64,000 bases of DNA from Sphingobacteriales bacterium 44-61 (GTDB lineage Bacteria; Bacteroidota; Bacteroidia; Chitinophagales; Chitinophagaceae). Positions 58,616 to 63,434 of the stretch are shown here, one piece after another. Numbering within the stretch: position 1 is the stretch's first letter; every line of letters starts with the position of its first letter. The notes below the pieces were generated by a model. That model was not told the origin of the DNA and did no database searches. It saw only the letters and a list, made by a program, of their open reading frames with translations. Made by a program: the position numbers and the translations under genes. The stretch covers positions 170,405 to 234,404 of the forward strand of contig MKTW01000010.1 in assembly GCA_001898405.1 (NCBI GenBank). The letters run 5' to 3'.

Positions 58616-58975
58616 ATGGAGAAGTTAACTTACCAGGAAGAAGAGGCCATGCTGGCTATCTGGAAAGCCGGCGAAGGGAATATCAAATCCTTCATGGAGC
58701 AAATGGATACCTCATTGCCTTATACAACCGTGGCTTCCACGATAAAGAACCTGGAAAAGAAAGGTTATCTCGGCAGCCGCCTTTTGGGCAACACTTATTT
58801 GTATAAGGCCATTATTTCAGAAGAGGAATACAAAAAGAAATTTATGGGAAACGTGGTGAAAGAATACTTTGATAACTCTTATAAAGAGCTGGTGAATTTT
58901 TTTGTGGAGCAGAAAAAATTATCAGCCCGTGAACTGAAAGAGATCATCGAGATGATTGAAAAAGGAAACAAATAA
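58616..58975 (+). CDS. BlaI/MecI-family transcriptional repressor
   Basis: A 119-residue winged-helix repressor of normal BlaI length. The HTH is seen in LTYQEEEAMLAIWKAGEGNI and the recognition part LPYTTVASTIKNLEKKGYLG, the wing in LGNTYLYKAIISEEEY, and the C-terminal dimerisation helices follow. In BlaI/MecI systems the repressor is cleaved after the M56 sensor is triggered, often by beta-lactams. In Bacteroidota the pair occurs at many non-lactamase loci. Two palindromes precede the ATG. It is 9 bases upstream of the M56 gene. Confidence 0.93.
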   Translation: MEKLTYQEEEAMLAIWKAGEGNIKSFMEQMDTSLPYTTVASTIKNLEKKGYLGSRLLGNTYLYKAIISEEEYKKKFMGNVVKEYFDNSYKELVNFFVEQKKLSARELKEIIEMIEKGNK

Positions 58976-58984
58976 ATTCTTCCC

Positions 58985-60559
58985 ATGCCTGTTATGTTTC
59001 AATACCTGCTGAAGTTTTCCCTTAGTTTGGGGATCGTCTATCTTTTTTACCAATTCCTGCTCCGCAGGCTGACCTTTTATAATTGCAACAGGGTTTATCT
59101 GCTTGTATACACTGCTTTATGTTTCTTTCTTCCATTGATCAATATCACTCCTGCGCTTGAAAATAATAACTGGCAAACAGGCAGGATAGCCAATATTATT
59201 CCTGCCTGGCAGATATCAACAGCATCCGTACATAAAATAGGAGAACCGGCCACTGATACGCTCTGGAACTATTGGACCGTGCTGGCTTTATTGTTATTAA
59301 CCGGAACCATCGTATTTCTTTCTGTTTTTATTATCCGTTATATTTCGTTTCTGCGCATCCGCCGGCAGGCAACCCTTTTGTCCGGGGGATCATTGAGCGT
59401 TTACCAGGTGGATAAAAACATTATCCCTTTTTCTTTTGGCAATGCCATTTTTATCAATCATACCCTGCATAATGAGGAAGAACTGCGTGAGATCATCCGG
59501 CATGAATTTGTGCATGTACGGCAAAAGCACAGCATTGATATTATTTGGGCCGAACTGTTATGCATGATCAACTGGTACAATCCATTTGTTTGGCTGCTGC
59601 GCAAAAGCATACGGCAGAACCTGGAATTCATTGCCGACCACCAGGTGATCAAGAGCGGCCTGGATAAAAAGCAATACCAGTATATGCTGTTAAAAGTTAT
59701 CGGTAACAATCATTTTAGTATAGCCAATCAGTTTAATTTTTCTTCATTAAAAAAACGTATAGCCATGATGAACAAAATTCAAACCTCGAAGCGGCAGTTA
59801 TTTCGCCTGCTGTTGTTATTACCTGCAGTTGCTGCGCTGCTGCTTGCTTTCCGTCAAAAGAACATTACACAGGATGCCCGTTTGCCAGAAGCCAGCCGGG
59901 CACAAGCTTCTGCCTTACCTGCACCCTCAACGGTTTCTGCCCCGGAGAATGCTGAAGCCATTTCTATTATGCAGATTAGCGATCCCCTTGATACGATACC
60001 TGTAAATGAAAAAGGTTATCAGGTAAATGTGCATGATAATAACGGGAATTGCACGATCATAATAAAAGATAAAGACAATAAAGTAGTAAAGAAGATATTA
60101 ATGACAGATTGGAATAAGGACCCGGAGCATTATGAAGAACTTTATGGTGAATTGCCTCCTCCACCTCCGCCTGTTCCACCGGTTCCTGTCATTGCTCCTG
60201 CCGGGGCCCCGGCTGCGCCTCCTGTTGCTCCTTCAGCGGAAATACCTGTGCCCCCGGCACCTGCCATGACGGAAGCTGCACCTGCAACTCCTCCTGTGCC
60301 GCCAACACCACCTGTTATTCAGATGCCGGCTGGTGTAAAGAGCATGACCATTAGCAATAACCAGGTTATCCTGATCGATAAGAAAGATAAAAAGGAGACC
60401 TATGATCTGAACGATCCTGCACAGAAAGCAGCATTTGAAAAGAAGTATGGAAAATTTCTCGAACAGGAGCCAGCGCCAAAAGCAAAACCTGCTGCCGTAC
60501 GTAATTTCACTTATCAGTTTATGCCATTCATGTCTTTATCTTCTGATACGGGTTGCTGA
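58985..60559 (+). CDS. BlaR1-like M56 family membrane metallopeptidase
   Basis: A 524-residue membrane protein. Four hydrophobic helices (about residues 5-25, 36-55, 95-115 and 275-292) surround an M56 zinc site HEFVHVRQKHS (His173, Glu174, His177), with a second part CMINWYNPFVWLL and a distal acidic motif EFIADHQVIKSG. The periplasmic C-terminus lacks the penicillin-binding sensor of BlaR1. It has a long Pro/Ala linker (residues about 393-450) and a small lysine-rich tail domain (MTISNNQVILIDKKDKKETY). It likely cleaves the BlaI-type repressor upon an unknown envelope signal. ATG 58985; 58994 also possible. Confidence 0.88.
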   Translation: MPVMFQYLLKFSLSLGIVYLFYQFLLRRLTFYNCNRVYLLVYTALCFFLPLINITPALENNNWQTGRIANIIPAWQISTASVHKIGEPATDTLWNYWTVLALLLLTGTIVFLSVFIIRYISFLRIRRQATLLSGGSLSVYQVDKNIIPFSFGNAIFINHTLHNEEELREIIRHEFVHVRQKHSIDIIWAELLCMINWYNPFVWLLRKSIRQNLEFIADHQVIKSGLDKKQYQYMLLKVIGNNHFSIANQFNFSSLKKRIAMMNKIQTSKRQLFRLLLLLPAVAALLLAFRQKNITQDARLPEASRAQASALPAPSTVSAPENAEAISIMQISDPLDTIPVNEKGYQVNVHDNNGNCTIIIKDKDNKVVKKILMTDWNKDPEHYEELYGELPPPPPPVPPVPVIAPAGAPAAPPVAPSAEIPVPPAPAMTEAAPATPPVPPTPPVIQMPAGVKSMTISNNQVILIDKKDKKETYDLNDPAQKAAFEKKYGKFLEQEPAPKAKPAAVRNFTYQFMPFMSLSSDTGC

Positions 60560-60691: not shown

Positions 60692-61258
60692 ATGGCAAAT
60701 ACTTCAGATATCAGCCGTGGTATGATCATCAAGTTGGATGGCAGTCTTTACTCCGTTGTTGAATTTGGTGAAAACAAAACGGCCCGTGCGGCGGCTAAAG
60801 TGTGGGCAAAACTGAAAGGGGTGGATAATAACCGCTCTATTGAAAAAACCTGGAACTCAGGCGATAACATCTATCCTGTGCGCGTAGAGAAAAGGGCTTA
60901 CCAGTTTCTTTACAAAGATGATACAGGGTATAATTTCATGGACAACGAAACTTTCGAACAGATCGCTCTCCAGGAAAACCTTGTTGATGCCCCTCAGTTC
61001 TTAAAGGATGGCCAGGAAGTTTCTGTATTGATCAATACAGAAACAGAACAGCCGATGAGCGTGGAGCTGCCCGATAAGATCGTAATGCTGGTAACTTACA
61101 CAGAACCAGGCCTTAGAGGCGACACAGCCACCCGTACGCTGAAGCCTGCCACTGTTGAGACCGGCGCTACAGTAAGTGTGCCTCTCTTTGTAAATGAAGG
61201 CGAACTGATCCGCGTCAACACCAAGACCGGTGAGTACGTGGAAAGGGTGAAAGAATAA
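60692..61258 (+). CDS. efp: Elongation factor P with Arg32 at the tip
   Basis: A 188-residue EF-P, the usual length, which helps the ribosome through polyproline stretches. The start at 60692 follows the canonical promoter; a frame to 60611 is not natural. Domain I: MIIKLDGSLYSVVEF. Domain III ends with the EF-P signature LKPATVETGATVSVPLFVNE. Without gaps the loop ENKTARAAAKVWAKLK places Arg32 where E. coli has Lys34 (PGKG). Arginine at the tip is the target of EarP rhamnosylation in some proteobacteria, but no TDP-rhamnose-type enzyme is near. It precedes accB-accC, a common gene order. Confidence 0.95.
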   Translation: MANTSDISRGMIIKLDGSLYSVVEFGENKTARAAAKVWAKLKGVDNNRSIEKTWNSGDNIYPVRVEKRAYQFLYKDDTGYNFMDNETFEQIALQENLVDAPQFLKDGQEVSVLINTETEQPMSVELPDKIVMLVTYTEPGLRGDTATRTLKPATVETGATVSVPLFVNEGELIRVNTKTGEYVERVKE

Positions 61259-61271
61259 AAGGAACTTTATA

Positions 61272-61309
61272 AAAAAAGGCCTGGAATTACTCGATTTCAG
61301 GCCTTTTTT
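61272..61309 (+). terminator. Terminator after efp
   Basis: AAAAAAGGCCTG (61272-61283) and CAGGCCTTTTTT (61298-61309) form a perfect 12-bp stem with a T-run, so it can work in both directions. Confidence 0.85.
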
Positions 61310-61499: not shown

Positions 61500-61979
61500 A
61501 TGGACTTTAAACAGATCCAGGAGTTGGTCAAGATGATCAACAAATCAAATATCGGAGAGCTGACGATCGAGCAAAAGGACTTCCGGATTACCATCAAGCA
61601 AAAAGAAGAGCAGGTGACACAGGTTGTCCAGGCTGTTTCCGCTGCCCCGGTTTATTCCGCTCCTCCACCGCCTGTTGCCGGCCAGCCGGTAGCCCAGGCT
61701 GCTGAAAAAGCAAAAGCTCCTGAAGCGGCCACTCCTTCCAACCTTATTACTATCAAGAGCCCGATGATCGGTACTTTCTATCGCAAGTCGTCGCCCGACA
61801 AACCCAACTTCGTTGAAGTGGGCGATGAAGTAGCTCCGGGTAAAGTGGTTTGCATCATCGAAGCCATGAAGCTTTTCAATGAGATCGAAAGCGAGATCAG
61901 TGGTAAGATCGTAAAAGTATTGGTAGAAGATGCTTCACCGGTGGAATACGATCAACCTTTGTTCCTTGTAGAACCATAA
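61500..61979 (+). CDS. accB: Biotin carboxyl carrier protein of acetyl-CoA carboxylase
   Basis: A 159-residue BCCP. An N-terminal helical part (MDFKQIQELVKMINKSNIGE), an Ala/Pro/Gln-rich linker (residues about 41-80) and a biotinyl domain with CIIEAMKLFNEIESEIS, where Lys124 is the biotin site. The ATG at 61500 is preferred to the in-frame TTG 61491. It carries carboxybiotin between AccC (next gene, 117 bases away) and the AccA/AccD transferase; accA is at 38352. A structured gap (61985-62053) separates it from accC. Confidence 0.96.
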   Translation: MDFKQIQELVKMINKSNIGELTIEQKDFRITIKQKEEQVTQVVQAVSAAPVYSAPPPPVAGQPVAQAAEKAKAPEAATPSNLITIKSPMIGTFYRKSSPDKPNFVEVGDEVAPGKVVCIIEAMKLFNEIESEISGKIVKVLVEDASPVEYDQPLFLVEP

Positions 61980-62096: not shown

Positions 62097-63434
62097 GTGT
62101 TTAAAAAAATACTGATCGCAAACCGTGGTGAGATTGCACTCCGTGTAATCAGGACCTGCCGGGAAATGGGCATTAAAACGGTAGCTGTTTATTCTACAGC
62201 CGATCGTGATAGCCTGCATGTAAAATTTGCAGACGAAGCCGTTTGTATCGGCAAACCTCAAAGCAGCGATTCCTATCTCAATATTGCACATATTATGGCA
62301 GCAGTGGAGATCACTAATGCCGACGCTGTGCATCCCGGTTACGGCTTCCTGGCTGAGAATGCCAAGTTTGCCCGGATCTGTAACGACCATGGTATCAAAT
62401 TCATCGGCCCAACAGCTGAGATGATCAATGGAATGGGGGATAAGATCACTGCAAAAGAAACCATGATCAAAGCCGGTGTGCCTGTGGTGCCCGGTGGTGA
62501 AGGTTTATTGCAGAGCCTTGATGAGGCCAAAGGTCTTGCCCGTAATATGGGCTATCCTGTTATTCTCAAAGCTACTGCAGGTGGTGGTGGTAAAGGCATG
62601 CGCATTGTATGGCAGGAGAGTGATATGGAAAAAGCATACGATACAGCCAAAGCTGAAGCAGCAGCTGCTTTCAAGAATGACGGTATCTACATGGAAAAAT
62701 TTGTGGAGGAACCCCGCCACATTGAAATACAGGTAGCCGGAGACCAATACGGCAATGTATGCCATCTCAGTGAAAGGGACTGTTCTATCCAGCGCAGGCA
62801 CCAGAAACTGGTAGAAGAATCGCCTTCTCCATTTATGACAGATGAACTTCGCGCCAGGATGGGAGAAGCAGCCAAGAAAGCTGCTGGCGCTATCAATTAT
62901 GAAAGCGTGGGCACGATAGAGTTCCTGGTTGATAAACACCGGAATTTCTATTTCATGGAAATGAATACCCGTATCCAGGTAGAGCATTGCGTAACAGAAG
63001 AAGTGATCAACTTCGACCTGATCAAGGAACAGATCAAAATTGCCATGGGCGAACGCATTTCCGGAGAAGACTATATTCCCCAGATGTATTCCATCGAATG
63101 CCGTATCAATGCAGAAGATCCCTATAATGATTTTCGCCCTTCACCCGGCCGTATCACCACGCTGCATCAACCAGGTGGCCATGGAGTGAGGGTTGACAGC
63201 CATGTGTATGCAGGCTATGTGATCCCGCCGTACTATGATTCCATGATCGGCAAACTGATCACGGTGGCACGCACCCGCAATGAAGCAATCGATACCATGT
63301 ACCGCGCACTCAGCGAATACGTGATCGAAGGAGTGAAAACAACCATTCCTTTCCATCTTCAACTGATGCAGGATGAAAGGTTCAGAAGCGGTGATTTTAA
63401 TACCAAATTCCTGGAGTCATTTCACCTCAAATAA
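62097..63434 (+). CDS. accC: Acetyl-CoA carboxylase, biotin carboxylase subunit
   Basis: A 445-residue biotin carboxylase of normal length. It carboxylates BCCP-bound biotin with ATP and bicarbonate. Motifs: [34 protein letters not shown], the glycine-rich ATP loop [16 protein letters not shown], and the active site [20 protein letters not shown] and [15 protein letters not shown]. Start codon is GTG 62097 (no ATG fits). It is the third gene in the efp-accB-accC group, with an own terminator at 63442. Confidence 0.96.

Follow-up and report, generated by a model that had tools for sequence, protein, structure and literature searches.

The window, by which we mean the whole 64,000-nucleotide stretch of DNA that was analysed, carries an efp gene, followed on the same strand by the genes for biotin carboxyl carrier protein and biotin carboxylase. 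The features on which the analysis draws are these:

60692..61258, plus strand: efp, elongation factor P (EF-P) with an arginine tip, 188 aa (profile, domain, alignment, and model evidence)
60767..60817, plus strand: codons of residues 26 to 42, the segment to which, at 90% conservation, every fixed difference from the Lys-type relatives is confined (7/7 fixed differences; segment identities)
60776..60796, plus strand: codons of the seven-residue β3-β4 loop, residues 29 to 35, KTARAAA (between predicted strands 18-28 and 36-43)
60785..60787, plus strand: CGT codon for Arg32, which forms the loop tip at the site of E. coli Lys34 (translation; multiple alignment)
61500..61979, plus strand: accB, biotin carboxyl carrier protein, a conserved neighbor whose start codon is unsettled (Pfam Biotin_lipoyl; flank counts)
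62097..63434, plus strand: accC, biotin carboxylase, a conserved neighbor (domain match; flank counts)

The efp product scored 210.3 bits against the NCBIfam model TIGR00038 ("efp"), above the cut-off of 185.8, and contained all three Pfam EF-P domains (PF08207, PF01132, and PF09285). Its AlphaFold2 model, with a mean pLDDT of 88.7, had the three-domain fold of EF-P, and the best Foldseek match to it in the PDB was the Thermus EF-P 1UEB (E 1.3e-20). According to this model, the β3-β4 loop would comprise seven residues, 29 to 35, with Arg32 in the center and predicted strands at residues 18 to 28 and 36 to 43 on either side.

Between efp and accB, a strong hairpin with trailing T's (61272-61309) resembles an intrinsic terminator; therefore, the two genes, although neighbors, are perhaps transcribed separately. 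Immediately upstream of efp is a gene for an M56 (BlaR1-like) protein (58985-60559) that carries GELPPPPPPVPP, and this in turn is preceded by a penicillinase-repressor-like gene (58616-58975). Polyproline occurs in the products on both sides, as PPPP in the accB linker and as PPPPPP in the M56 protein. A polyproline link between efp and its neighbors was rejected as incidental, because PPP is rare in accB (3/47 distinct accB of Arg-type loci versus 2/35 of other loci) and the M56 gene occurs in only 14 of 55 Arg-type flanks.

A preliminary description of this DNA had placed Arg32 at the site of E. coli Lys34 and had taken lysine to be the usual tip residue in Bacteroidota. To the first point, a multiple alignment of the window EF-P with those of E. 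coli (L267), Bacteroides (L268), Parabacteroides (L269), Thermus (L151), and Shewanella (L209) put TARAAA (residues 30 to 35) opposite PGKGQA of the E. coli protein without a gap, so that Arg32 stayed opposite Lys34 and no lysine came to lie at the tip. The second point was borne out as well: of 85 near-complete EF-Ps sampled outside the family, which represented 20 further families of the order and 36 from the remainder of the phylum (the partial L101 was dropped and family f11 left out), 64 carried Lys at the tip, 20 Asn, and one Arg. The Lys-type loop of the phylum reads HVKPGKG-x-AFVRTKLK.

Within the window's own family, which we take to be Chitinophagaceae, the arginine is fixed. We read 57 EF-P loci from 56 family genomes (one genome was represented twice), selected at the top and the bottom of the similarity list as well as through a phylum-wide draw, and T30, A31, and R32 were present in all of them, with NKTAR[AS][AG]AK[VI]WA[KR]L as the loop consensus; the arginine is thus a trait of the family rather than of a single genome. 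Consistently, a DNA pattern for the loop matched 35/35 family genomes and 0/163 other genomes of the order. The loop DNA was spelled in 54 different ways in the 57 loci, and five Arg codons were used. The presence of Arg32 in every locus under so many spellings excludes chance or sequencing error, and this variation in the DNA indicates that the protein sequence of the loop is held by selection. Eight of the 11 residues from 28 to 38, Arg32 included, were invariant in 56 distinct family sequences, and the loop segment was the most conserved part of the protein within the family, with a mean pairwise identity of 0.949 compared with 0.678 to 0.814 for the other segments.

A single EF-P was found in 140 of 147 family genomes searched, so the family has no lysine-type backup. 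EF-P was present in 127 of 130 high-quality family genomes, and the search gave no EF-P match in the three others (G056, G117, and G139, which are 97 to 100% complete). As a congener of each of the three carries EF-P, these absences are likely assembly gaps.

The glycine-free loop violates the rules given for either known class of EF-P. With Arg32 and Thr30, the window protein has neither the Lys tip nor the Pro at position -2 of the EpmA type. It has the arginine tip and the lack of proline at -2 that mark the EarP type, as do all 57 family loci (T30 and R32), and carries Ala31 in place of Gly at -1, again in every family locus read. The window EF-P is also without the tip lysine of the 5-aminopentanol-type EF-P of Bacillus, for which YmfI, a short-chain dehydrogenase, acts on a modified lysine. 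As for EfpL (YeiP), the window EF-P reached 98.3 bits with the model TIGR02178 (cut-off 264.05) and has Lys29 where EfpL has a proline three residues before the arginine. Of the features of the EarP-less Deinococcota kind, it has the arginine tip, the AKVxAK flank, and a genome in which EarP was not found, with Ala31 instead of Gly at -1.

A different modification or none had been thought likely from the sequence, and the gene content of the family fits that expectation. EarP (PF10093) was found neither in the window's own genome (0/1) nor in the genomes of the phylum (0/395), both profile searches being run without a positive control. It was also missing from 64 further family genomes (0/64) in a search in which all three positive controls responded (Shewanella, E 8e-152; Aeromonas, 1e-146; Fusobacterium, 1.2e-104). 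As the 64 genomes do not overlap with the 14 family genomes of the phylum search, EarP was detected in 0/78 distinct family genomes. Four family genomes gave PF10093 matches at E 0.25 to 0.30, all of them below the cut-off and in short or broken frames. For EpmA, nothing in the window's own genome reached the cut-off, which 2 of 14 control genomes passed; the best match was a 545-residue open frame (246.8 bits versus a cut-off of 286.9), which is probably lysyl-tRNA synthetase. EpmB and EpmC were absent from 7/7 family genomes. Above the cut-off they were also absent from 4/4 other genomes of the order, so these Lys-type neighbors seem to be without the E. coli pathway too.

The surroundings of efp were compared in 18 family and two Lys-type regions of 20 kb together with part of the window, efp itself not being located by motif in L221, L234, and L236. 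In these regions, no conserved gene other than accB and accC was found beside efp, and the next clusters reached 5 of the 21 regions. In Shewanella, earP directly adjoins efp.

To locate where the family protein departs from its relatives, the 56 distinct family sequences were compared with 64 Lys-type sequences. Requiring at least 90% conservation in each group left 41 columns, and seven of them were fixed differences, all of which fell in residues 26 to 42 (Fisher p 5e-6). From Lys-type to family, these are V28N, P30T, G31A, K32R, G33A, F36K, and R38W. When the threshold was lowered to 80%, 10 of 55 columns differed, eight of them in the loop. The loop identity between family and Lys-type proteins was 0.325, compared with 0.836 among the Lys-type proteins themselves; the other segments ranged from 0.307 to 0.594 between the two groups. 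The lowest of these values belongs to residues 43 to 65, where the Lys-type proteins share just 0.488 among themselves and no difference is fixed at 90%.

The gene has also kept its place. The accB gene follows efp in 54/55 Arg-type flanks and 36/48 other flanks, and accC lies near it in 53/55 and 33/48, respectively; these counts are lower bounds, as many flanks span just 1.5 kb, and some of the regions repeat genomes already counted. Given that the fixed differences are confined to the loop and that efp has retained its position beside accB-accC, we conclude that the loop changed in place, by about eight residues, within a gene that kept its neighborhood. Trees built without the loop support the same descent. 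In them, the family formed one clade (support 0.92) inside Bacteroidota, beside the Lys-type L080, L083, and L094; the domain I tree without the loop still grouped the family with L080, and the tree of domains II and III was weak (family clade support 0.633). L080 shares TWNSG and much of the next 30 residues with the window EF-P but has a KPGKG loop; accB is not beside its efp. Transfer, whether of the entire gene or only of domain I, was rejected on the basis of segment identity, trees, and synteny. Because of the shared synteny, the trees, and the likeness to L080 outside the loop, neither a paralogue nor a transferred gene would, on these comparisons, account for the arginine of the family.

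Judged by sequence, the family loop appears closest to that of Deinococcota, which it most resembles in the flank (AKVxAK), alanines replacing the glycines. Both have an arginine tip, no proline at -2, and K-x-x-R-x-x-A-K-V-x-A-K around the loop, and EarP was found in neither. The Deinococcota (Thermus) loop has Gly at -1, +1, and +2 (IGRGGAK), whereas the family has Ala at these positions (TARAAAK), and the remainder of the family protein is like the EF-P of Bacteroidota rather than that of Deinococcota. When 84,980 species genomes were searched with the pattern K-x-G-R-[GA]-[GA]-A-K-[VIM]-x-A-K, which requires Gly at -1 and hence excludes the window's family by design, 61 stretches were obtained; 58 were EF-P, all 58 under Deinococcota titles, and three were not EF-P. 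Among 30 loci of the Thermus phylum retrieved with a Thermus query, 29 had the Deinococcota loop and one a close variant, with Arg in all. EarP was found in 0/111 Deinococcota genomes in a search without a positive control and in 0/4 in the search with controls.

There is nothing unusual in EF-P as such, and EarP-less arginine tips are already known. Borrelia burgdorferi is reported to have Arg32, as the family does, and no EarP homologue (legend of S4 Table, PMC4739656), and the same paper names Thermus and Deinococcus as arginine types. Arginine tips were counted in 14.75% of 1166 EF-Ps in PMC6544042, against 100 EarP proteins, from which we infer that Arg-type EF-Ps without EarP must already occur in those data; arginine without Pro(-2) is argued there to predate EarP. 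Bacteroidota do not appear among the taxa listed with EarP in PMC5615199. The EarP-type EF-Ps of Shewanella, Pseudomonas, and Neisseria share the arginine tip and the lack of proline at -2 with the family, which differs in that EarP was not found in the genome or next to efp, Ala replaces Gly at -1, and identity to the Shewanella protein is 35%. EfpL, too, has an arginine tip, reported from mass spectrometry to be unmodified in E. coli, where the protein acts in that state (PMC11611912), but is a paralogue with a longer loop. The Lys-type EF-Ps of Bacteroidota, such as L080, share descent and the sequence outside the loop with the family, and most of them synteny as well, and differ in the KPGKG loop with its Lys tip. 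A description of Chitinophagaceae EF-P was not found in the literature searched, and the supplementary data of PMC6544042 may contain such sequences. As far as that literature goes, what is new is a whole Bacteroidota family that has an EarP-less arginine tip in a glycine-free loop, exchanged inside an inherited gene.

The explanation we favor, and consider fairly probable, is that the loop was rewritten in place in the ancestor of the family and that Arg32 works unmodified. The sole EF-P of the family would thus have had its ancestral Lys-type loop (HVKPGKG[G/P]AFVRTKLK) turned into NKTARAAAKVWAKLK, which then remained near constant. Such a protein would be expected to retain binding between the E and P sites and its action on proline-stalled ribosomes, and it would be active with its arginine bare. 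For Thermus, a contact of Arg32 with C75 of the CCA end has been described, and the machinery is argued to be able to adapt to a lack of modification (PMC2821294); the Thermus structures may be of recombinant protein, which would limit them as support for a native unmodified Arg32. Two facts speak most strongly against an unmodified Arg32. EarP-type EF-P without its sugar was inhibitory, that is, worse than no EF-P, in an E. coli reporter (PMC6544042), and a bare arginine is therefore not good in itself. Furthermore, Ala at -1, which every family copy read contains, was not tolerated in two other EF-Ps: the Gly-to-Ala exchange abolished the function of E. coli EF-P and left less than 1% of the rhamnosylation of P. 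putida EF-P, in which the glycine is described as crucial to function as well (PMC6544042). Both facts were established in other loop contexts.

The main rival to an unmodified Arg32 is an acquired arginine-modifying enzyme unrelated to EarP, for instance a glycosyltransferase or methyltransferase, with the frozen loop as its recognition site; we regard this as possible, if on the unlikely side. The near-total fixation of the loop, well above that of any other segment, could be the recognition mark of an enzyme other than those searched, as the search covered EarP, EpmA, EpmB, and EpmC only, and the inhibition caused by the sugar-less arginine EF-P in E. coli points in the same direction. Nevertheless, accB and accC are the only conserved genes beside efp in the family, whereas earP adjoins efp in Shewanella, and Deinococcota, whose loop type is the nearest, likewise go without EarP. 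That the family evolved another route of activation, in which the glycine-free TARAAA loop stays frozen because a dedicated enzyme, unrelated to EarP, reads it and modifies its Arg32, is a proposal that we consider doubtful. The need for a modified EF-P tip is still argued, and the family is a natural test of it, as it has lost both Pro at -2 and Gly at -1, which are considered essential near the tip, and shows none of the enzymes searched for. The answer would be either that, given the right loop, a bare arginine is sufficient, or that a new arginine-modifying enzyme awaits finding.

It is very improbable that Arg32 is rhamnosylated by an EarP too diverged for the Pfam model to recognize. The family does have the arginine tip without proline at -2 of EarP-type EF-P (PMC6544042), but PF10093 responds strongly even to the Fusobacterium protein, while nothing exceeded the cut-off in the 64 family genomes and the four weak matches were short or broken frames; moreover, Ala at -1 nearly abolished rhamnosylation in P. 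putida. Equally hard to credit is acquisition of the loop by gene transfer from Deinococcota, either the gene or its first domain having been replaced. Residues 29 to 40 do match the Deinococcota loop, but outside the loop the family is nearer to Lys-type Bacteroidota in every segment (0.456 versus 0.291 for residues 1 to 25), domain I without the loop groups with the Lys-type L080, efp synteny is kept, and at three positions of the loop one has Gly where the other has Ala. Conversion over a very short tract is still conceivable. Least credible of all is that the role of EF-P was lost or changed in the family so that the tip no longer matters, since, despite the three genomes at least 97% complete that gave no EF-P match, 127 of the 130 high-quality genomes have the gene and most of the loop residues are invariant while their DNA varies.

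Some EF-Ps elsewhere in the phylum deserve mention in their own right. The 20 with an Asn tip (L104, L108-L110, L112, L114, L116, L119, L120, L122-L124, L126, L129, L133, L135, L137, L138, L142, and L143) have the loops TPGNLRA, TPGNKRG, TPGNLHA, or NPGNWRA, and asparagine tips with Pro(-2) have been reported (PMC6544042). One genome of the phylum, G336, has two EF-Ps (L128 and L129), one with an Arg tip (VQTGRGGAYYQ) and the other with an Asn tip (TPGNLRA). In the Lys-type genome G227, the EF-P match L071 contains one internal TAA.
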